A DNA stretch of 64,000 nt from Candidatus Gastranaerophilales bacterium (GTDB taxonomy: Bacteria > Cyanobacteriota > Vampirovibrionia > Gastranaerophilales > Gastranaerophilaceae), in NCBI GenBank assembly GCA_905234865.1, contig CAJOJE010000003.1, positions 1-64,000 of the forward strand. The letters are read 5' to 3'. This document shows, piece by piece, positions 14,266 to 46,763 of this stretch. The translations under genes were made by a program, and so were the position numbers. Positions within the stretch are counted from its first letter, which is position 1. The number at the start of each line of letters is the position of its first letter. The notes below the pieces were generated by a model. That model saw only the letters and a list, made by a program, of their open reading frames with translations. It was not told where the DNA came from and searched no databases.

Positions 14266-14838
14266 TTATATAAAAAAGTTTTTTTCGCTTGTATCGGACA
14301 AATCGTGGAGTTCTTCTTCCATAAAAGAGATTTTTTCTTTAGACATTTGAATTTTATCGTAATCAACGGGTTCATTATTTTTTCTTTTGTCTTTTTGAAT
14401 ATCAAGCCATAAATTTTGCCATTTTAAACGGTCTAAAATTTCATCGCACCTTTTATCTTTTGCTTTTGAAAAAACCGTTTTGGAGGAATTTAAACATTCT
14501 TCACTTGCATTTTTATATTTTTCAAAATTTTTATCGTTTTTATTTTTTTCAAAAACATCCCCGAATTCCAATCCTCTTTCGGCAAGCTTTTTGCTTATCG
14601 TGCGGTAATATTGAGAATTGCCTTCCATAAGCTCATTTTCACCTCTCGGATAAGTTGTAATTTCCGTATCAATTCCAACTTCGTCTTTCCAGCAAAAATT
14701 TATTACATCGGACCATTTTGACCCTTTCGGAGCATCATCAAACCCCCAAGGCATATCAACCCACCCTTTATAAGAAATTTGGTTTTGCTGATTATTACCC
14801 GCATTATACGAATAAGAATTAATATTATTTATTTTCAT
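14266..14838 (-). CDS. Hypothetical protein with N-terminal I-S-Y-K-G peptide
   Basis: A 190-residue protein with no recognised domain. The N-terminus is Asn/Gln/Ser-rich and low in structure, ending in QISYKGW at residues 20-26, then DMPWGFDDAPKGSKWSD and a charged, helical remainder rich in Lys and Glu. There is no signal peptide or membrane segment. The short F/Y-K-G element also occurs near the start of the products at 27674, 28559 and 40204. No ribosome site better than an A-rich tract is seen. Function unknown. Confidence 0.7.
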   Translation of the reverse strand: MKINNINSYSYNAGNNQQNQISYKGWVDMPWGFDDAPKGSKWSDVINFCWKDEVGIDTEITTYPRGENELMEGNSQYYRTISKKLAERGLEFGDVFEKNKNDKNFEKYKNASEECLNSSKTVFSKAKDKRCDEILDRLKWQNLWLDIQKDKRKNNEPVDYDKIQMSKEKISFMEEELHDLSDTSEKNFFI

Positions 14839-28558: not shown

Positions 28559-28897
28559 ATGATTACTCCCGTCAGTAATAATTCAACATATTCGGCAACA
28601 AATCTAAAACCCGTTGAAGTTCCGCACTTTAAAGGGGCGGTTTCATCATGTCAAAACAATCTTTCAAAAGATACATTGGTTAAAAGTACAAACAAAACAC
28701 AAAATAAAATGAGTGCGGATGAAGCTTTTGACATTGCAAAAGAAGGCACAAAAACGGGTTTGCATATAATTAAAGATACAACCGAAAAAACGGGAAAATT
28801 TTTATACCATTTGGTAAATTCCATATACGAGGACTCCAAAAAAGTAATGAACAGCAAAGCCGCAAACGGTGTAGACATTGTTGATCAGATTTTATAG
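28559..28897 (+). CDS. Small hypothetical protein with N-terminal H-F-K-G peptide
   Basis: A 112-residue protein beginning with a Ser/Asn/Thr-rich segment, then VEVPHFKGAVSS at residues 19-30, then a Lys-rich helical body (ADEAFDIAKEGTKTGLHIIK). There is no signal peptide. AAGGAAAAA precedes the ATG. It is probably cotranscribed with the gene at 27674, which has the same type of N-terminal peptide. Function unknown. Confidence 0.65.
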   Translation: MITPVSNNSTYSATNLKPVEVPHFKGAVSSCQNNLSKDTLVKSTNKTQNKMSADEAFDIAKEGTKTGLHIIKDTTEKTGKFLYHLVNSIYEDSKKVMNSKAANGVDIVDQIL

Positions 28898-28985: not shown

Positions 28986-29681
28986 TTGAAAAAATATTTT
29001 TTAGCTATTATTTTTCTTTTATTCTTTTCTAATTTCGGTTTTTGCGAAACCGAGCAAACGGATATTAATTTATACGTTAAAGAAATAGAAACAAAAATAT
29101 ATAACAACCGGAAGCCTGAATATAATATGCCTCTTGCGCCGATTCAAGCAACTCTTATAATAGATGAGGAAGGGAATTTAAAATCAATATACTTAAAAAA
29201 TTCTTCGGGCGAAAAAGAAGCCGATAATAAAGCGCTGAAAGCAATAACAGCTTCTTTTCCCGTATAAAAATTCCCGAAAGAATTTGATTTTCCCGAACTT
29301 GAAATAGATTTTACGCTTCAAACCAAATTTACGACAAAAATCATAACCGAACAAAAAAATATAATTCAAGAGGATTGGATATTTGTTTTTGATAAACTCT
29401 TTTATGATAGAAATTCAATAAAAAAAGAAGGGGGAAATACAATAGGTTGGTTTAGCGAATATTTTCCACAAAATGAAAAATTTTTTAATTCCGAAGAAAT
29501 TGCTTACGATACAAAAAAGCAGCGCAAATTGCGAAAATAAAACCTTAAGTTTTTCTTCCTTTAAATATTTTAACAAAGACGATAAGTTTATAGGCGAAAA
29601 TATGTAAAAAAGCGAATTTCAATCATACGCTTTTATCCTTTAGGAAAACATTATCTTAAAATTCTTTGCGCCGATAACTAA
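28986..29681 (+). pseudogene. Exported TonB-C/adhesin-E-like protein, several stops
   Basis: A TTG start at 28986 follows GAGG by 6 nt and opens a signal peptide (KKYFLAIIFLLFFSNFGFC). The first domain resembles a TonB C-terminal-like strand set (LAPIQATLIIDEEGNLKSIY, then KALKAITASFP) and is stopped by TAA at 29265-29267. In the same frame the reading continues KFPKEFDFPELEIDFTLQTK, then EDWIFVFDKLFYDRNSI and GWFSEYFPQNEKFF, which has the pattern of surface-adhesin E-like domains, to a stop near 29540. After a frame change the end reads SEFQSYAFIPLGKHYLKILC up to 29681, with one more stop inside. The gene is dead; domain names are tentative. Confidence 0.6.
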
Positions 29682-31129
29682 ATTTTGCCCGATATTCTAA
29701 GCTCAAATTCGGGAGCTATTTCATCATAGCTTATTGTCGGAATATCCATATACAATTGAGAAATAAGGGCAAAAACAACCGGCCTCAAGTGTGGCGGGGT
29801 TATAAGGACAAGCCTTTTTTGAGTTGAAATTTCAACAACATCTTTTATAAATTCTTCAAATTTATACCCGTCAATTTTCACGACGGCATCGCCCTCATCT
29901 TCGATTAAAGCACTTTCTTCAAGCAATTTTAAAGTCGAATCGGACAATTCGTAAGCCTCAATTTGCTTATCTTGATTGCTTATAGACCAATCAATTTGTC
30001 TTGACAAAGAAATTCTTAATTTTTCGAGCAAATCGGCTTTAGAATTATCGTCCGCAAGGTCGTTAATTTTTTCAAATATGTAAATAACGTCCTTTACGCT
30101 TATTCTTTCCCTGATTAAAGAACAGAAAATATATTTTAATTCGCCGATTGAAATAAAATCGCCCAAAATTGTTTCTATTATTAAAGAATTATTATCGGAA
30201 ACAATTTCGATATAACGATTCATATCGGAATAATTAAAGATTTCCGCAACATGTTTTATGGCATAATATTTTAAACATTTTGCAATAAACTCTGTCGGTA
30301 AAAGCCCTTTTATCCAATAATCTTTAGTTAAATCTTCTCTTATCCAAATTAAAGCCCGTCCCGTTACGGGGTCAAATTCCTGAATTGAACCGTCGGGGTA
30401 TTCGTTCATATCAAGTTCATCCTGATAAAAAACGACATAATCAGGATAAGCAAAACCGCCCGTCACAGGAACGCCATGGACATTTATCGTAAAAGAATAC
30501 GGCTCCAATTCCAAAGATTCTATAAATTGAACTTTAGGAATAATATACCCTAATTCATTCGTTAATTCCTGCCTTGTTTTAATTGTTTGGGATAAAAGGT
30601 TTTTTTCTAAAGAAGGACTGTTCAGAGAATAATTTTCTTCGCTCAAAGTAATCGCAAGCCTTTCTTCGCCCAGACTTGAAGCCATTTTTGAGGGCGATAA
30701 AAGACTTTTTAATTGTTTTTTTAAATTGTTTAATCTGTCAACTTCTTTTGCAATTTCTTCGTTTAAAACTTCTCTTTCATCCTCTTTGGCACTTTCGAGG
30801 AAGTTTTTAATTTCTTCGATTTTTTCTCTTTTTTCATTAATTTTTCTTTGAAAATTCAGACAAAGTTCATAAGGCTCTTCCTTATTGGAGAACATCCTTT
30901 CCATTTTTGTTTTATAACCTTGAATGTCCTCGTAATTTTCATCGTCCTCAATTTCAACTTCACGAGTGAAAATAATATTGTAAACTACTTTATTATTTGC
31001 CTCGCCTTCATATATCGAATACAGTTCCCAACCTTCTTTTGCGGTTTGGTTTAAAGTATTTTCAAGCAATGAAAGTTCCTCAATCGGAACCGATTTTATA
31101 CAAAATTCCTGTCTTTGTCCTCTTATCAT
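29678..31129 (-). CDS. Soluble protein with FlhA-type (FHIPEP) cytoplasmic domain
   Basis: A 483-residue protein with no membrane segment. Residues 1-55 resemble a DUF4177-type fold (CIKSVPIEELSLLENTLNQT, AKEGWELYSIYEGE), residues 85-145 form a coiled coil, and residues about 188-483 follow the FlhA cytoplasmic domain from start to end: RQELTNELGYIIPKVQFIES, TINVHGVPVTGGFAYPD, LPTEFIAKCLKYYAIKHVAE, SIGELKYIFCSLIRERISVK, LVLITPPHLRPVVFAL and TISYDEIAPEFELRISGKI. In FlhA this part is joined to eight transmembrane helices and docks chaperone-substrate complexes at the export gate; here the channel is absent. It may be a second docking platform or a repurposed protein. It stands apart from the fli genes at 42756-46763 and converges on a pseudogene by 4 nt. 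Confidence 0.75.
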   Translation of the reverse strand: MIRGQRQEFCIKSVPIEELSLLENTLNQTAKEGWELYSIYEGEANNKVVYNIIFTREVEIEDDENYEDIQGYKTKMERMFSNKEEPYELCLNFQRKINEKREKIEEIKNFLESAKEDEREVLNEEIAKEVDRLNNLKKQLKSLLSPSKMASSLGEERLAITLSEENYSLNSPSLEKNLLSQTIKTRQELTNELGYIIPKVQFIESLELEPYSFTINVHGVPVTGGFAYPDYVVFYQDELDMNEYPDGSIQEFDPVTGRALIWIREDLTKDYWIKGLLPTEFIAKCLKYYAIKHVAEIFNYSDMNRYIEIVSDNNSLIIETILGDFISIGELKYIFCSLIRERISVKDVIYIFEKINDLADDNSKADLLEKLRISLSRQIDWSISNQDKQIEAYELSDSTLKLLEESALIEDEGDAVVKIDGYKFEEFIKDVVEISTQKRLVLITPPHLRPVVFALISQLYMDIPTISYDEIAPEFELRISGKI

Positions 31130-40203: not shown

Positions 40204-42759
40204 ATGAAATTAGACTTTGGTAATTTGAATAGCCAATTCATCAGTGCGCCGAACCTCAAGGGGCAAGAAACAAAAGCTCTCCGAAAAAATTCAAACCCAT
40301 TAAATTTTAAAGGCGCAATTGACGGTATCTCGTCCGATATTATAAGAGTAACCCAAAAGGAAGCGGGAAGTATCGGAAGTAATATCGTGTCGTCAAACGC
40401 CGGTTCGAGAATTGCAAACTTTTTAAAAGAAAATATAACCGAAGGAACAGAATCAAGATATGCAAACCCTGAGCACATATTTGACGCTTTAAGAAAAAAT
40501 TTCGGCTCGACTTTTGATGATTGCAGAGCACAGGTTGAACAATTTGCACAAGCGACGGGGTGCAAAAATCCTCCGATATCATTCGCCGAAGACGGCAGTT
40601 TGATAGTTAAAAGAGATCCGTTTGCAAAAAATGTTGCGCAGGGTTTCAAAGAATTTACTCTGGGAACAATTCTCGATATCGGGGTCGGAATAAGACAAGC
40701 ATTCAGAAAACTGACCGGTTCCGGCGCTCAGGCGGAAAGTACGGGCTCGGAAGGTTTTATTTCACGAATTTTAAATAACAGAGTAAAAGAACTTGATGCA
40801 AGAGAATCATTTTATAAATTAGCCGGAGTTCTTGAACAGGTAACGGATAAAAGTGCGCTTGCAAAATTATCGGGAACGGAAAGCGAAAGACTCGCTCAAA
40901 GAGCTGAAAATTTGGCGGCGGATTCCGTTAAAAGCGCCACGAAAAAAGTAGGAAACTATAACACAAAATCGGAGCGTGCATGGAACCGTATGGGGACGGG
41001 GTTTGTAAGTGCAGTTTTTGCCGGAACCGATTTTTACAACATATCAATGCTTCAAAACGACGATAAAGAAAAAGCCCGGCAGGCAGGCAGGCAGCGTTTC
41101 TTTCAAGATATGCGCCGTCAACTTATAACGGCAAGTTTAACTTTTGTTGTACTTGGAGCATTCCAGAAAAAAGTAAACAATTCAATTCCTTATGCCGTTT
41201 TATCTTTGGGCGGAGTTACTCTTTTGTCGGAAATTACATCAAGACTTATAGGGGGAATTTCCTTAACGCCTTTAAGCCCCGAAGAAGCAAAGAAAATGGC
41301 GGAAAAAAGAGGTTATAAACAAACAAAAGAAACTTTAAACAATGAAACAAAAACTTCATCGGTAATCTCTCCGCAAAAATCCTCCGTTGATAACGTATTT
41401 AACATATTTACGGATAAATACGCAAATAAACCGCAGGAATTAACTTTTACGTCAAATTCCATACCAAAAAAACAAAATATCGAAAATACAAACATAAATA
41501 CGAATTCCAATGAAACTTCAAACAAAGCAAATAATTTGACCGAAAATTCAAAAGAAGAAAAGAAAACCCCCTTATATAAAAAGATTTTAGGCGGTGTCGG
41601 CGCAGTTATTGCGGCATCACTCGGCATTGGGCTTTTAAGGTCAAAAAATGTAATGGGGATTGATACCGCCCTTAAAAAATTAAGCTCAAGTTACAAAGAT
41701 TTTACGGACGGAATGACAACAAGAAAACTTGTTATGTCAAAGAGCGAAGTTGATAATTTTATTCAACATTTAAGACAAAATAATTTAACGCAGCAGGCAG
41801 ACAGTATTGTTGAAAAATTAAAACTTAGCGAGAACACTTTAGAATCAACATCCGATGTCGTAAAAAAATTCTACAAAGGCACCGTTAAAGAAGGTGAAAA
41901 ATATTACGATTTGGGACATGTCGATGCCAAAGGAAGAAAAATCGTTTATGATGTCCTTACATATCCCATAAGCCTTATGGGAAAAATCACGGAAAAGGCG
42001 GATAACCTCGTAAGAGCGCTATTTGGCGCACAATCGGGTAAAAGCGAACTTACTTCAATACAAAAAAATATCCCGCTAACGGAAATGGTTGAAAAATATA
42101 CGGAAAAACTTTCCAAAATAGGCGACGGCGATAAATCTTCATTAAATAAAGAAATTCAAAACGCATTTACAAGACACTTCTCTGAAACAAGTTCAAAAAA
42201 TAAAAATACATCAATTGCAATGTTGTCAAGATTTTTGATTACTTTAATTTCAGGATACTTCTTTGTAAACGATTACAGAAACGAAGTTTTAATCGAATCG
42301 CAAGGTAAAGACATAGACAGAGCAAACGCTACAATGAAAGAAAGAATAGGACATAAAGTTTCTAACTTTGTCTTAAATTCGATGTTTATGGATTTATTCA
42401 ACTCAACCTTTGAGCGTGCATACTTGGGTTCTGTTCCGGGCGCTACTTTAGTTGCAATGGCAACCGAATTTACGAATGAAACCGCAGTCAGGGCTTCAAT
42501 CTGCACTCCGAGTACAAAAATGACAAGAGATGAATTAATTGAATATGAAAAAGAACGATTAAACGATACGGGGCTTAAAGGTAAATATTACAGGTCATTT
42601 ATGAAATTAACGGGCAAAAAACCGTTAAGCGAAAAAGCAAGTAAAAAAAATAATAATAAAGAAGAACAAAGAGCAGCCGTAAAAGCTCCCGTTATTCAAG
42701 GAACAACGGCACAAAACAAACTTTCAATGCAAGAATTTATAAAAACAAATAAAGTTTAG
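40204..42759 (+). CDS. Large membrane protein with N-terminal N-F-K-G peptide, unknown
   Basis: An 851-residue protein without recognised domain. It opens with a flexible segment ending in NPLNFKGAIDG (residues 31-41). Hydrophobic segments lie at about 305-350 (LITASLTFVVLGAF, VLSLGGVTLLSEITSRLIGG), 458-478 (GVGAVIAASLGIGLL) and 665-690 (LITLISGYFFVNDYR); between them is an Asn/Thr/Ser/Lys-rich linker (about 370-450) and long helical parts. The last 40 residues are Lys-rich. There is no cleavable signal peptide. It is monocistronic, diverges from the hybrid kinase and overlaps fliR convergently by 4 nt. Function unknown; the peptide it shares with three smaller proteins suggests a lineage-specific targeting or docking role. 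Confidence 0.7.
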   Translation: MKLDFGNLNSQFISAPNLKGQETKALRKNSNPLNFKGAIDGISSDIIRVTQKEAGSIGSNIVSSNAGSRIANFLKENITEGTESRYANPEHIFDALRKNFGSTFDDCRAQVEQFAQATGCKNPPISFAEDGSLIVKRDPFAKNVAQGFKEFTLGTILDIGVGIRQAFRKLTGSGAQAESTGSEGFISRILNNRVKELDARESFYKLAGVLEQVTDKSALAKLSGTESERLAQRAENLAADSVKSATKKVGNYNTKSERAWNRMGTGFVSAVFAGTDFYNISMLQNDDKEKARQAGRQRFFQDMRRQLITASLTFVVLGAFQKKVNNSIPYAVLSLGGVTLLSEITSRLIGGISLTPLSPEEAKKMAEKRGYKQTKETLNNETKTSSVISPQKSSVDNVFNIFTDKYANKPQELTFTSNSIPKKQNIENTNINTNSNETSNKANNLTENSKEEKKTPLYKKILGGVGAVIAASLGIGLLRSKNVMGIDTALKKLSSSYKDFTDGMTTRKLVMSKSEVDNFIQHLRQNNLTQQADSIVEKLKLSENTLESTSDVVKKFYKGTVKEGEKYYDLGHVDAKGRKIVYDVLTYPISLMGKITEKADNLVRALFGAQSGKSELTSIQKNIPLTEMVEKYTEKLSKIGDGDKSSLNKEIQNAFTRHFSETSSKNKNTSIAMLSRFLITLISGYFFVNDYRNEVLIESQGKDIDRANATMKERIGHKVSNFVLNSMFMDLFNSTFERAYLGSVPGATLVAMATEFTNETAVRASICTPSTKMTRDELIEYEKERLNDTGLKGKYYRSFMKLTGKKPLSEKASKKNNNKEEQRAAVKAPVIQGTTAQNKLSMQEFIKTNKV

Positions 42760-43541
42760 AAGATATTGGCAAAAGATTGAAGATATTCCCCGATAACATT
42801 TATTAACATCGGCATTACCCACATTAAAATCATAGCCCCCATAACGGGCTTAAAAAGAAAGCTCATTTGAAATACGTTTACTTGAGGAGCAGTCTTTGAA
42901 ATCGTACCCAAAATAATATCTTGTCCTAAAGTTGCAAGCAAAATCGGGGAAGCTATCTGCATTCCGACAACAAACGTATTTGAGGTTATCTGCACAAGAT
43001 AATCAACGTTTATGACTTTATCCAAGGGTAAACTTGCGGCATATACGGGAAAAATCGTAAAACTTCTTATAAGTGCATTAATTGTCCAATACATACCGCC
43101 TATCGACATAAAAATTAAAATGGCAAGTATGTTGAAAAATCCGCCCATAAGAGAAGCCTGACTTCCCGTTGAAGGGTCGAGAATTGTTGCCGATGATACG
43201 CCGATTTGGCTGTTTATGATATCTCCTGCGGAACTTACCGCACCCATAATACAGTTTATGATATATCCGATTAAAAAACCGAACGTAAAATTTAGCGCCA
43301 AAGAAAGAATTATTGAGGTGCCGTTTGGGATTGGAGAGGGTTTTATAATCATTGTTATAATAACGGTTAAAATTAAAGCAAGAGAAAGCCTCACATAACT
43401 CGGGATATCATTCCTGTTAAAAGGAGGAGCAAACTGAATTAATCCTATTATTCTTGCAAAAATCATCATTCCCGAGCCCAGCACAAGGTTAATTTCGGGA
43501 AATAATTTTGCAAATTGCATTGTAAATAAATCGGCTTCCAT
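42756..43541 (-). CDS. fliR: Flagellar export protein FliR
   Basis: A 261-residue membrane protein of the FliR/SctT family, part of the FliPQR export gate. It shows the family's multi-helix pattern with IGLIQFAPPFNRNDIPSYVR near the start, GYIINCIMGAVSSAGDIINS in the middle (the conserved 'aGe.i..q.G' region) and VFQMSFLFKPVMGAMILMW near the end. Length is normal. It is the last gene of the fli operon, 12 nt after the exported protein at 43554. Confidence 0.9.
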   Translation of the reverse strand: MEADLFTMQFAKLFPEINLVLGSGMMIFARIIGLIQFAPPFNRNDIPSYVRLSLALILTVIITMIIKPSPIPNGTSIILSLALNFTFGFLIGYIINCIMGAVSSAGDIINSQIGVSSATILDPSTGSQASLMGGFFNILAILIFMSIGGMYWTINALIRSFTIFPVYAASLPLDKVINVDYLVQITSNTFVVGMQIASPILLATLGQDIILGTISKTAPQVNVFQMSFLFKPVMGAMILMWVMPMLINVIGEYLQSFANIF

Positions 43542-43553
43542 TTATTTTCCTTT

Positions 43554-43988
43554 TTATGTCGGATATAAAGTACACTGCCCCAAAGGAATTGTTTCGTCCT
43601 CGGGAAATCTCGCATTAACACTTACGGTCATATCGACTGTTTCGCCGTTTTCTTTATACAAACGAATGTATGTATAAGTTTCATGCTTAGTTTTAATAAA
43701 TACGCTTTTTAAATCGTTTTCTTCGGTGTATTCATCAATTACGTCATACATTTTAATGTTATCTTTATCGGCATATACAACGCCTATAATATCAAAATCA
43801 CAGGTAATTTTATATTTGGAACGTGTTTTTAAGTTTAATTTATTATCAATATTTGTTTTGAAAAAATCCATATACCCTTCCAAATTAAGCTGAACCGCAG
43901 GCATGAGATATTCTCTTTGTTGTTCTTCTTGCGCAAACAAAGAAAGCGTTGTCATAAAAAATGCAAATAAGACAATAATTAATCTCAA
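43554..43988 (-). CDS. Exported hypothetical protein inside the fli operon
   Basis: A 144-residue protein with a signal peptide (RLIIVLFAFFMTTLSLFA, cleaved before QEEQ). The mature part is beta-rich (KITCDFDIIGVVYADKDNIK, TYIRLYKENGETVDMTVSVN) and has two cysteines. It stands between fliQ and fliR with gaps of 3 and 12 nt, a position that holds no gene in standard operons. It may be a periplasmic or outer-membrane-facing component of the same apparatus. No family recognised. Confidence 0.7.
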   Translation of the reverse strand: MRLIIVLFAFFMTTLSLFAQEEQQREYLMPAVQLNLEGYMDFFKTNIDNKLNLKTRSKYKITCDFDIIGVVYADKDNIKMYDVIDEYTEENDLKSVFIKTKHETYTYIRLYKENGETVDMTVSVNARFPEDETIPLGQCTLYPT

Positions 43989-43991
43989 AAA

Positions 43992-44480
43992 TTACCTTCC
44001 TAATATTTTATTTGTTTCTATCAAGTTGGGTCTTGGATTTCCGCCCTGATAAGAAGGCGTATACTTTGATTTTTCGGCTCTGTCCACCCATGGAAGCTTA
44101 CCTTGATTTTTCATAATTTCTTTGGTTTTGTCGGATGTTGAGAATTTATCGTTCATTTCTCCCGCAAAGGGTCTTGAATGTTTATAATAATCGGGAGGTA
44201 AAACGTAATTTTCCGATTTCGGTATTACGTTAAATGCGACATTTAGTCCGTCCGTTATGTATTGAGTCAACATTTGGATGTATAAAAGACCCAGTGCAAC
44301 AATAGTTAAAAATACTCCGATAATTTTTGGCGCAGCCGCAATTGTTTGTTCCTGAACCTGCGTTACCGCCTGCAAAATACCTACAATAAGCCCGACTCCC
44401 GCCGCAACCAAAACACAGGGCATGGATATCGTAAGCATGGTATAAAATCCTCTTGCAATATATTCTACCAAATAATCCAT
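43992..44480 (-). CDS. fliQ: Flagellar export protein FliQ with C-terminal extension
   Basis: A 162-residue FliQ/SctS. Residues 1-88 match the family: ARGFYTMLTISMPCVLVAAG, GLIVGILQAVTQVQEQTIAA and PKIIGVFLTIVALGLLYIQM give the two-helix hairpin with the conserved QVQEQT. FliQ is normally about 89 residues; here about 74 more follow, polar and Pro/Lys-rich (PPDYYKHSRPFAGEMND, LPWVDRAEKSKYTPS), without membrane segments. It overlaps fliP by one base (TAATG). Confidence 0.9.
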   Translation of the reverse strand: MDYLVEYIARGFYTMLTISMPCVLVAAGVGLIVGILQAVTQVQEQTIAAAPKIIGVFLTIVALGLLYIQMLTQYITDGLNVAFNVIPKSENYVLPPDYYKHSRPFAGEMNDKFSTSDKTKEIMKNQGKLPWVDRAEKSKYTPSYQGGNPRPNLIETNKILGR

Positions 44481-45121
44481 TAATTAAAGCTCTCCACTAA
44501 ACCTTTTACAATTAAGCTCCACCCGTCAACCGCAACAAATATCAGCAGCTTAAAGGGCAAAGAAACAATCGTGGGCGACAGCATAAACATACCCAATGCA
44601 AGCAAAATATTTGCAACAACGAGATCAAGAACGGTAAAAGGAACATAAATTATAAAACCGATTTCAAATGCCGTCCTTAATTCGGATAATATATACGCAG
44701 GCGCCACTTCCCACAAAGTCAATTCTTCGGGAGATTTCGGCATTTCTTTTCTTGTTTTTTCTACAAAAAATATAATATCATCTTCTCTTGTTTGTTTCAG
44801 CATAAATTCTTTTAAAGGTTCAGACCCTACTTGAATTGCTTCTACGATATTGCCGTTTTTTTGATACGGTACGCTTCCCGCTTCGTACATGCTTTGAAAA
44901 ACGGGCGACATTGTATAAAATGTCATAATAACACACATTCCGATTAAAACCATGGCGGGAGGTACGGAGTTTGTACCCATTGCGGTTTTAAGCATTGAAA
45001 AAACAATAACGAACCTTAAAAAACTTGTCATGCACATAAACACAAACGGCAAAAACGAAAAAAGAGCCATTGTAAAAAGGAGTTGTAAAACAGGGTTCAT
45101 ATCTTTCATTAATACATCCAT
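44480..45121 (-). CDS. fliP: Flagellar export protein FliP
   Basis: A 213-residue FliP/SctR core gate protein. It shows FMCMTSFLRFVIVFSMLKTA, then MGTNSVPPAMVLIGMCVIMT, and near the end LVVANILLALGMFMLSPTIV followed by SLPFKLLIFVAVDGWSLIV, which are the family's strongest blocks. The start at 45121 has AGAGAGGA 11 nt upstream and follows fliO by 1 nt; a longer frame to 45157 lies within fliO. It has no cleavable signal peptide, unlike enterobacterial FliP. Confidence 0.94.
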   Translation of the reverse strand: MDVLMKDMNPVLQLLFTMALFSFLPFVFMCMTSFLRFVIVFSMLKTAMGTNSVPPAMVLIGMCVIMTFYTMSPVFQSMYEAGSVPYQKNGNIVEAIQVGSEPLKEFMLKQTREDDIIFFVEKTRKEMPKSPEELTLWEVAPAYILSELRTAFEIGFIIYVPFTVLDLVVANILLALGMFMLSPTIVSLPFKLLIFVAVDGWSLIVKGLVESFN

Positions 45122-45122
45122 A

Positions 45123-45488
45123 TTAATAATTTCCTCTCTTTTCCTTATTTCTGTCACTTAGCTTTTTCAACAAACCGCCGTCTTGAGAAATCATAAAACT
45201 TTTTTCAAGAACTTCTTCTTTTACATCTTTAATGCGATCTTCTTTAGAAAGTTTTGAAATTAAATTAAGATTATTCGTGCTGCTTCCGATTAAAAATTTT
45301 TCTCCCTCACATTCGACAATGTAAAGCATTTTTCTATCGGGGAGCCTCATCATATCTTTAATTTTTAAAAGTGCATTTTTCCTTAAAGGGTCATTTTGCA
45401 TTGTTTTTTTATACACGATGAACGCAAGCAGTAAAACTCCGACGCTTGCCAGGGTATAAACAATCATTTGTATAATATATTTTACCAA
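45123..45488 (-). CDS. fliO: FliO-like flagellar assembly protein
   Basis: A 121-residue single-pass protein: a transmembrane helix at about residues 8-27 (MIVYTLASVGVLLLAFIVYK), then a small beta domain with RKMLYIVECEGEKFLIGSST, the FliO pattern, and a charged tail. FliO helps assemble the FliP ring. Position between the FliN-like gene and fliP is the standard one. Confidence 0.82.
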   Translation of the reverse strand: MVKYIIQMIVYTLASVGVLLLAFIVYKKTMQNDPLRKNALLKIKDMMRLPDRKMLYIVECEGEKFLIGSSTNNLNLISKLSKEDRIKDVKEEVLEKSFMISQDGGLLKKLSDRNKEKRGNY

Positions 45489-45491
45489 TTT

Positions 45492-46763
45492 TTATTCCTC
45501 AAAATTTGAATAATCTAAATCATCTTTAGGCGCTTCTTGAACTTGTTCGGGCGCTTTCGGTTTTTGCGGCGGAATTGGTTTTTGAACTTGATTTTGAGCA
45601 CTCGGCTGCGGCTTTGGCACCGCTTGCGGTTTGGCTCCGCCTGAAATCGGTTTTGGCGGGGGAGAATTTTGAACTTGTTCTACGGGTTTTTTTGGCGATT
45701 CATTACTTGTGGGTTTTTTTGAAGCAAAAACATCCGTTATTTTTACTCCGTACTTATCGTTTATAATTACAAGCTCACCTCTTGCAACTGCTTTATTTTC
45801 AACCATTAAAGAAATTTCGCCGCTCATAACGGGTTCTAAATCGATTACGAGCCCTTTTGAAATTTGTTTAAGCTCGCCCAAAGTCATTTTTATCCTTTTA
45901 AACTCTGCACTCACTTCAATTTGTATGTCATCCCACATTGTTTTATTTTCAGTCATATCATATTCCTTATAATAATCAAGGTCAAACCTTGTATTGTTAA
46001 AATCAGGCCCAATATCAAACTCTTCTCCTAAATCAATCATAATTGAAGGGTCAGGGTTTACTTTAAATCTTGTATCTATCGTAGGAGTTTTAAGCTGCAT
46101 AGTCTTAATGTCGCTTTTTTCCAAAACTAAAATATCATCCTGATTTAAAGTTTTAAGGTCGTTTAATGAAATTTTTGCATATCCGGCTATTATATCAACA
46201 TAAGCAAAATTATCCGCAAAATCTTCATAAGCAAAATTATTTTCAATTTTTATATTTTCGGGCGACAACCTGTTTAAAGGGATATTTAAGGTAATTTTAC
46301 CCGCATTAACGTCTTTTGATTTAACCAAAAAATCAAAATTTAATGTTGTTTTATTTAAAGAATCGATTTTATCGGGCTCTGTATCTTTAATTAAAAATTT
46401 CTCGATATTTTTTACTATATATTCAAAAAGCCCGTTTAAAATTCTTTGTTCCAAAGGAGTTAACTTTTCAAGGTCAAAAACGGGAGAAGAAGAACCGAAA
46501 ATATCATGAAAATTAATTCTGATAAAATCGGAAGTCACCCTTAAAGTTATATGTTGTTTATTTTTAATTGAAATTCTGCATGAATAAAAAATTTCACCTT
46601 TTAAAAGCGGGTCTTGCTTTAAACTTTCACAATCATTGATTGAAACAAGTTTTATTGCATAATTATTTTCAAAATAAGAATTGACTGAATTTGTAACACC
46701 GTTTCCTATCGTGTTGCAAAACCAATCGTATGTATTATTCAAATTTAATTTCTTATTTTCCAT
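45492..46763 (-). CDS. FliN/FliY/SctQ-like protein with SpoA domain and Pro-rich tail
   Basis: A 423-residue protein. Residues about 278-346 form a clear SpoA (FliN C-terminal) domain: VSAEFKRIKMTLGELKQISK, then GLVIDLEPVMSGEISLMVEN and ELVIINDKYGVKITDV. A second, more diverged SpoA-like region lies at about 185-245 (VDIIAGYAKISLNDLKTLNQ, DDILVLEKSDIKTM). The N-terminal 150 residues are unassigned, and residues 350-423 are a Pro/Gln-rich, disordered tail. Two SpoA domains in one chain recall injectisome SctQ or FliM/FliY fusions rather than a short FliN. It should form the cytoplasmic C-ring/sorting platform. It is the first gene of the operon. Confidence 0.8.
   Translation of the reverse strand: MENKKLNLNNTYDWFCNTIGNGVTNSVNSYFENNYAIKLVSINDCESLKQDPLLKGEIFYSCRISIKNKQHITLRVTSDFIRINFHDIFGSSSPVFDLEKLTPLEQRILNGLFEYIVKNIEKFLIKDTEPDKIDSLNKTTLNFDFLVKSKDVNAGKITLNIPLNRLSPENIKIENNFAYEDFADNFAYVDIIAGYAKISLNDLKTLNQDDILVLEKSDIKTMQLKTPTIDTRFKVNPDPSIMIDLGEEFDIGPDFNNTRFDLDYYKEYDMTENKTMWDDIQIEVSAEFKRIKMTLGELKQISKGLVIDLEPVMSGEISLMVENKAVARGELVIINDKYGVKITDVFASKKPTSNESPKKPVEQVQNSPPPKPISGGAKPQAVPKPQPSAQNQVQKPIPPQKPKAPEQVQEAPKDDLDYSNFEE

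Follow-up and report, generated by a model that had tools for sequence, protein, structure and literature searches.

This study concerns a stretch of 64,000 nucleotides (the window; positions 1 to 64,000 of the forward strand of contig CAJOJE010000003.1) from a Candidatus Gastranaerophilales bacterium, and in particular a minus-strand run of six intact frames at 46763-42756 that encodes a SpoA-domain protein, FliO, FliP, FliQ (162 residues), a small exported protein of 144 residues (protein X) and FliR. It is suggested here that this operon probably specifies the export gate and the cytoplasmic ring of a type III secretion organelle that is flagellar in type and non-motile and that forms a second system, separate from the swimming flagellum. 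This second, deep-branching flagellar-type system of the Vampirovibrionia is referred to as S2, and the ordinary flagellar set as S1. Judged by sequence, S2 stands as a second system rather than a remnant, since two sets of genes coexist and since genomes without flagella keep rod proteins while having no detectable FliG_C, flagellin or FlgH. S2 appears to be kept beside a swimming flagellum, or instead of one, in a group of gut bacteria.

Two flagellar-type gene sets

The distribution of the relevant proteins was followed in panels of 13 genomes (FlhB, FliG_C, flagellin, rod proteins and secretin), 17 genomes (FlgH) and 10 genomes (FHIPEP, the family that includes FlhA). FliG_C, flagellin and the L-ring protein FlgH were searched for and not found in any of five genomes, namely the source genome of the window (G000; 1.87 Mb, 99.6% complete), G004, G010, G014 and G018, which are called flagella-less below. 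Flagellin (PF00669) is present in eight of 13 genomes, that is, in all eight of the others, and exactly one FlgH is found in each of the 12 others of the larger panel. FliG_C occurs in 7/13 genomes, never in two copies, and belongs to the S1 operon where examined; one genome, G026, which is 78% complete and outside the FlgH panel, has flagellin and no FliG_C match. Rod proteins (PF00460) are present in all 13 genomes, the five flagella-less ones included.

The copy number of gate proteins follows the same division. Each of the five flagella-less genomes has one FlhB. Of the eight others six have two, and the pair in which a single copy was seen, G023 and G026, are both fragmented. Six genomes taken to be without flagella (G000, G004, G014, G015, G017 and G018) have two FHIPEP proteins apiece, a full-length FlhA and a soluble protein corresponding to its cytoplasmic domain (FlhA-C); the flagellated genomes G025, G027, G028 and G033 have three apiece. 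An S1 operon of the order FlgB-FlgC-FliE-FliF-FliG-FliH-FliI lies apart from the S2 genes in G025, G027 and G028, as does a FliF-FliG-FliH-FliI run on a contig of G016, and the short FliQ, FliR, FlhB and FlhA of flagellated relatives are likewise encoded away from the S2 genes.

Phylogenetic analysis of FlhA, in two trees of 32 and 25 rows, places all S2 sequences in one group with support of 100/100, the stem that leads to it being long (3.06 changes per site in the first tree, 2.24 in the second). S1 FlhA sequences from these genomes fall in with the flagellar references (92/86 and 95/92), and the SctV sequences, three from rhizobia, form a group of their own. The FlhA of S2 is thus, on these alignments, separate from the S1 FlhA of the same genomes, while the exact point at which it joins the tree is tentative because long branches meet, as the program itself warned.

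Comparison with curated family models gave a similar picture. The S1 proteins of G028 score above the flagellar NCBIfam cut-offs (FlhA 851.5 against 772.1, FlhB 387.5 against 349.25, FliR 189.6 against 168.6 and FliQ 90.2 against 88.9), while S2 proteins fall below both the flagellar and the injectisome cut-offs. The exception is FliP, which passes the flagellar model TIGR01103 (226.8 against 217.45) and is the only gate subunit scored in the window operon to do so; FliQ of the window is under the cut-offs for both FliQ and SctS, FliR under those for FliR and SctT, and FlhB of G000 is narrowly below the flagellar value (345.7 against 349.25). S2 has homologs of the core gate proteins SctR, SctS, SctT, SctU and SctV, each below the Sct equivalog cut-off against which it was scored.

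The gene set of S2

By similarity, the gate and base of S2 comprise FliP, a long FliQ, FliR, FlhB, FlhA, FliF, FliE, FliH and, in relatives, FliI, and to these can be added FliJ-like and FliK-like proteins, the SctQ-like SpoA protein, a transglycosylase, rod proteins, a short hook-like protein, a FliA-like sigma factor and soluble FlhA-C. Besides the window run (operon A, 46763-42756, minus strand), the source genome has operon B (contig C5, locus L046), encoding a lytic transglycosylase (SLT), FliE, FliF, a protein termed Y here, FliH and FlhA; operon C (C16, L113), encoding an unknown protein, two FlgF/G-like rod proteins, FlgB and FlgC; operon D (C10, L114), encoding FliJ-like and FliK-like proteins and a short hook/rod-family protein of 289 residues; and flhB with a sigma factor gene downstream (C14, L115). 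In a relative this sigma factor is FliA/WhiG-like, below cut-off.

In a scan of named genomes 80 loci were kept out of 335, and among these, some of which are cut by contig ends, Y was present in 80, FliH in 79, FliF in 76, FlhA in 74, FliE in 48 and the transglycosylase in 42. FliI adjoins FlhA or is on the same stretch in 29 of the 80; the copy in the source genome was not located. Seven further loci were fetched from elsewhere in the class, outside the order; all have the gene order FliF-Y-FliH-FlhA, and in four of them rod genes lie upstream. The FlhB of S2 carries the motif NPTH in G000, G014, G027 and G028. In other orders, one or two short open reading frames lie between fliF and the gene for Y (L250 10279-10791, L251 7275-8441 and L254 9559-10089), some of them with weak matches to Y.

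The operon in the window

The gene order that had been read from the sequence alone, from a FliN-like protein through FliO, FliP, FliQ and an exported protein to FliR, holds in full, all six frames being present and intact on the minus strand. The first gene (45492..46763) encodes a FliN/SctQ-like cytoplasmic-ring protein of 423 residues that matches PF01052 (FliMN_C) with 69.7 bits at 278-345, and alignment of relatives shows a Pro-rich linker and a conserved acidic C-terminus. It aligns to the SctQ model TIGR02551 with 58.1 bits over 190-343 and to the FliN model TIGR02480 with 68.7 bits, under the cut-off in both cases. The earlier proposal that it holds two SpoA domains is supported by the SctQ alignment, by two PF01052 stretches in the ortholog at L050 and by the alignment of the two halves to each other (25 columns, E 0.009), although not strongly. 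FliO follows at 45123..45488 (121 residues; PF04347, 29.4 bits) and FliP at 44480..45121 (PF00813, 225 bits). For FliP the internal ATG at 45121, which gives 213 residues as in relatives, is probably the start rather than the listed GTG at 45157.

FliQ (43992..44480) contains the two-helix Bac_export_3 domain at residues 5-75 (PF01313, 69.6 bits against a cut-off of 25) and continues for about 87 residues beyond it, the extension (residues 76-162) being encoded at 43995..44255. A genome search with FliQ as query returned a long form, with frames of 139-193 residues, in 37 of 38 relatives, the sole exception being G024, which has a short FliQ only; short forms were found in 17 of the 38 and in 16 of those stand alongside the long one. 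Thirty fetched loci yielded 28 long FliQ proteins, all 28 of which carry the extension motif ...VLpxDYYKYTxPF...MKNPGKIP...NPRPNLIETNKILGR, and the extension is therefore genuine.

Protein X (43554..43988, 144 residues) begins at a TTG and has an N-terminal hydrophobic signal by eye. Of 27 evaluable loci, 17 have an open reading frame of exported type in the fliQ-fliR gap, nine have none and one has a replacement, so that X is common but not universal and the least constant of the three oddities to which attention had been drawn. Frame errors or chance open reading frames, for which absence from close relatives would have spoken, are ruled out for both the extension and X by this recurrence. 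X evolves quickly across the alignment of relatives and has no match in Pfam; some relatives of X give sub-threshold matches, either to CagX/VirB9 (E 4.6e-5 to 1.3e-3) or to T2SS-T3SS_pil_N (0.0014). In the replaced case, G019, the gap (L019 1078-1479) holds an unrelated four-helix protein that is presumably of the 23S rRNA intervening-sequence type. The run ends with FliR (42756..43541, 261 residues; PF01311, 180 bits).

The soluble FlhA-domain protein noticed earlier is also confirmed, at 29678..31129 on the minus strand (483 residues; FHIPEP, 148 bits, profile positions 321-656). It is without the membrane part, has an extra N-terminal domain with a weak DUF4177 match, and is of a type matched in 10/10 genomes searched. 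The suggestion of a modified export apparatus stands as far as the resemblance to SctQ and the conserved oddities are concerned; what is modified appears to be a separate system and not the flagellum of this organism.

Protein Y at the FliG position

Y is encoded between FliF and FliH, the position held by FliG in S1 operons. It is found in 68 of 146 genomes of the class, 52 from one family and 16 from three other families, and among the 20 listed of the 78 genomes in which it was missed none comes from the family of 52. With Y of the source genome as query, the nearest named relatives are metagenome-assembled genomes of Gastranaerophilales, including Candidatus Galligastranaerophilus. An AlphaFold2 model built from 53 sequences (pLDDT 88.2, pTM 0.57) gave no match in Foldseek at E <= 0.001. 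In a second structural comparison, limited to the 1000 best chains, six listed rows lie wholly inside residues 193-328 of Y and all are FliG chains (5wuj, 8wiw, 8umx, 3hjl, 8umd and 9n49), with Z of 5.0-6.2 and rmsd of 3.5 to 13; the aligned FliG residues, 2-187, cover the N and M domains without the torque domain. On position and fold comparison, Y is probably a relative or replacement of FliG that has no torque domain. Among the 53 sequences the weak Pfam matches are to MgtE_N in 19 (the most frequent), FliG_M in four and FliG_N in two, and Pfam found nothing significant in seven relatives of Y from other orders. Extra proteins of about 235, 300 or 600 residues in G014, G063, G103 and others have matches to Y that are confined to its N-terminal half, and this helical domain therefore seems to be reused outside operon B.

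Candidate substrates

A family of proteins encoded near operon B in some genomes, termed MG, begins MG(L/M)AASQAR..LTARK, ends KNI..FK.F and has no signal peptide by eye. The frames range from roughly 90 to 990 residues, the short forms being of about 109, and the ends are conserved while the centre is variable. In a 19-genome panel MG matches number 7-24 per genome in 14/14 genomes with S2, and none were found in the five class genomes without Y. Across the 146 genomes of the class MG is present in 70, comprising 68/68 with Y and 2/78 without; the two (G055 and G096) belong to families in which Y is otherwise present. The best short MG gene is on the Y contig in 31 of the 50 genomes of family f1 for which both places are listed, always within 13 kb. 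A single-sequence model of one MG protein (pLDDT 76.6) predicts two helices paired in a long hairpin that bears a small beta head, which would be compatible with a needle, a filament or many other coiled coils. Sequence searches of PDB and Pfam gave generic coiled-coil matches only; by fold, the first Foldseek match was flagellin (E 0.055, not significant), and a structural aligner returned only generic coiled coils.

MG genes are often followed by genes for MSYKND proteins (272-315 residues, Gly/Ala-rich with a hydrophobic centre) and for small helical proteins, which could be chaperones. Such a cluster is at about C1:110403-114598 in the source genome. The MSYKND proteins have no relatives in PDB or Pfam. 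At L265 8994-10598 an MSYKND protein stands with two small helical proteins, and the cluster with MG genes is conserved in several orders.

Polar N-termini of 15-50 residues ending in [FY][KT][GA] were seen in the window at 14266-14838, 28559-28897 and 40204-42759, and N-termini of this type also at L113 12769-14628, L190 4450-5073, L198 4559-5278 and L207 6733-7899. The carriers are unknown proteins and some that are enzyme-like, the one at L198 resembling adenylate kinase by eye. A filter for this pattern selected 27 of 818 open reading frames in the S2-bearing loci of the order (some being plain FliI, rod or flagellar proteins), 3/149 from other orders (all rod proteins) and 0/230 from genomes without Y; within the order it was found in 21/625 at the N-terminus and 5/625 at an interior offset. 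A preceding k-mer scan was dominated by orthologous operon genes. The N-terminus is possibly an export tag, and is a lead only, because the pattern was chosen after the sequences had been viewed and base composition differs.

Proposed mechanism

What follows on secretion by S2, on whether MG is needle or cargo and on the part played by X is inference. Y could bridge FliF to the SpoA ring by its half resembling the N and M domains of FliG and, taking no torque, would give a fixed export platform; as no FliG_C is found, the base of S2 probably does not turn. FliH, FliI and FliJ together with FlhA would drive substrates into FliPQR, and from there into the rod and short hook, whose length may be set by FliK and the NPTH switch of FlhB. 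After the switch, S2-specific proteins would be exported, most likely MG, as a needle-like or filament-like component, and the linked MSYKND proteins, as possible pore formers.

In the available text of one study the conserved loop of FliQ touches a loop of FlhB where the gate faces the cytoplasm (PMC7064499), and in that of another FliE starts the rod (PMC12403130). Since the loop meets FlhB on that side, the hairpin of FliQ should have both its ends, and with them the S2 extension, on the periplasmic side, near the point at which FliE begins the rod. The extension would then be inside the MS ring, where together with exported X it may form a base seal or a bushing for the rod.

A further and more doubtful possibility is that S2 represents a third lineage of contact-type delivery machine, derived from the flagellum separately from the injectisome. 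It would combine a motorless base and flagellar rod with MG needles or filaments, an MSYKND pore and cargo bearing the [FY][KT][GA] tag. Its targets would be host or microbial cells in the case of gut Gastranaerophilales, and prey in that of predatory relatives. MG, MSYKND, X, Y and soluble FlhA-C are concrete candidates for testing these ideas.

Alternative explanations

Several observations weigh against S2 as a separate secretion organelle. The second FlhB of G016 reads NPIH and not NPTH. The Z values between Y and FliG are within the range that the tool itself describes as common among helical proteins, below its chance level for such folds, and hhalign of Y against seven FliG sequences of the order gave a probability of 0.5%, which is no support; since a profile search of PDB with Y also returned no FliG, homology of Y to FliG by sequence was dropped, leaving position and fold comparison. 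Shared descent confounds the co-occurrence of MG and Y, and only S2 genomes supplied the seed of the MG model. Two findings on an outer-membrane exit and on gene neighbourhood, taken up with the alternatives that they favour, belong here as well.

The first concerns secretin, which is single in 6/13 genomes. Within the 13-genome search, with the context of secretin genes outside its scope, no constant extra secretin that could serve as a dedicated outer-membrane channel of S2 was found. A second, shorter secretin (C2:139783-140274, frame of 453 residues) is present in the source genome, with a similar one in G004, and is absent from several relatives. S2 might accordingly be a static structure, such as a rod- or hook-like surface peg, a periplasmic scaffold, or the base for membrane tubes or for the hat complex of the inner membrane that is reported close to genes of flagellar export. 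Rod and hook-like genes without flagellin would suit such a structure, and the accessible part of Kaplan 2022 (PMC9380563) connects a hat-like structure, itself unexplained, with genes of the flagellar gate. This explanation is unlikely in view of the full ATPase and the FliK/FlhB switch parts that S2 retains, and of the large, variable and linked protein family that tracks it.

The second concerns flagellated relatives. In G016 flhB2 and the sigma factor gene come after motA-motB-fliL-fliM-fliN, and in G028 the gene for soluble FlhA-C adjoins flagellar fliJ-fliK-flgD-flgE; from these neighbours S2 may be co-regulated with the flagellum, or partly serve it, where one is present. They also suit the idea that S2 is an accessory or alternative gate for the flagellum itself, retained for a side job in lineages that have none. 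That idea is somewhat less plausible still, as S2 owns genes for an MS ring, rod, short hook-like protein, FliJ and FliK and persists in all five genomes without a detected flagellum.

That the window holds merely what is left of a swimming flagellum whose filament, rings and motor were lost in gut lineages, apparently the published view (the available text of Di Rienzi 2013, PMC3787301, and Soo 2014, PMC4040986, interprets partial sets as reduction) and one that fits the missing FliG_C, flagellin and FlgH of the five flagella-less genomes, is strongly disfavoured and was rejected as the main explanation, because both sets coexist in flagellated relatives and S2 FlhA is not nested within flagellar FlhA in the trees, and also because the reading frames of S2 are unbroken and its operon recurs in 80 loci and in other orders.

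Relation to known systems

The secretion organelle proposed here shares with the S1 flagellum of G025, G027, G028 and G016 homologs of FliE, FliF, FliH, FliI, FliP, FliQ, FliR, FlhA, FlhB, FlgB, FlgC, FliJ and FliK, and the order FliE-FliF-[FliG or Y]-FliH. It differs in that FliG_C, flagellin and FlgH are not among its own genes, and in its probably fused SctQ-like SpoA protein, long FliQ, soluble FlhA-C and deep FlhA lineage. With the injectisome it has in common homologs of the gate, the lack of a torque domain, a probable SpoA1-SpoA2 fusion as in SctQ and possibly genes for a hairpin needle and a pore former; unlike the injectisome it keeps the rod proteins FlgB, FlgC and FliE, a hook-like protein and a full-length FliF, and no dedicated secretin was found in the 13-genome panel. 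Its FlhA scores closer to flagellar FlhA and falls outside the SctV sampled (three rhizobial sequences). Filament-less hook-basal bodies of Buchnera are flagellar bases retained for export without swimming. They are reduced true flagella, whereas S2 appears to be a separate lineage.

The non-flagellar type III secretion system (NF-T3SS) of the Myxococcales is an early branch without secretin or motor parts and is read as a translocation intermediate (Abby and Rocha 2012, PMC3459982, in the text available). S2 may resemble it, in that no FliG torque domain of its own and no dedicated secretin were found in the 13-genome panel; of other motor parts, MotA, MotB and FliM were seen only beside flhB2 in G016, no genome-wide search being aimed at them. 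According to the same text the Myxococcales system is without FlgBCDEK, FliE and FliG; S2 keeps FlgB, FlgC, FliE and the FliG-like Y. Since rod and hook-like parts are kept and no torque domain, filament or L ring is detected, S2 may be a living intermediate between flagellum and injectisome, distinct from that of the Myxococcales.

Titles and the beginnings of abstracts on Melainabacteria or Vampirovibrionia and type III secretion gave no S2-like system, most subscription papers and preprints being outside the scope of that search. Nor was a report of S2 found among the papers listed on secretion systems of Gastranaerophilales, where the top-ranked one treats a type IV system. If the present interpretation is true, genes that have been counted as flagellum, in accounts of motility and in arguments on flagellar ancestry, may in a common and mostly uncultured gut lineage belong to a secretion machine.

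Earlier papers appear, from the portions available, to have taken S2 genes for flagellar remnants. Soo 2014 (PMC4040986) inferred loss for partial flagellar sets, and Di Rienzi 2013 (PMC3787301) read a genome without filament and rings as reduction; in these portions the partial sets of Melainabacteria are treated as flagellum or reduction and not as a second system. For gut Melainabacteria the latter study gives 13 MEL-COG flagellum genes, with flgG, flgG, flgC, fliF, fliH, flhA, fliI and flgE in one run, followed in the list by fliP, fliQ, one skipped gene number and fliR, then flhB and a second flhA. As far as that text goes these are evidently S2 genes, the layout being a match.

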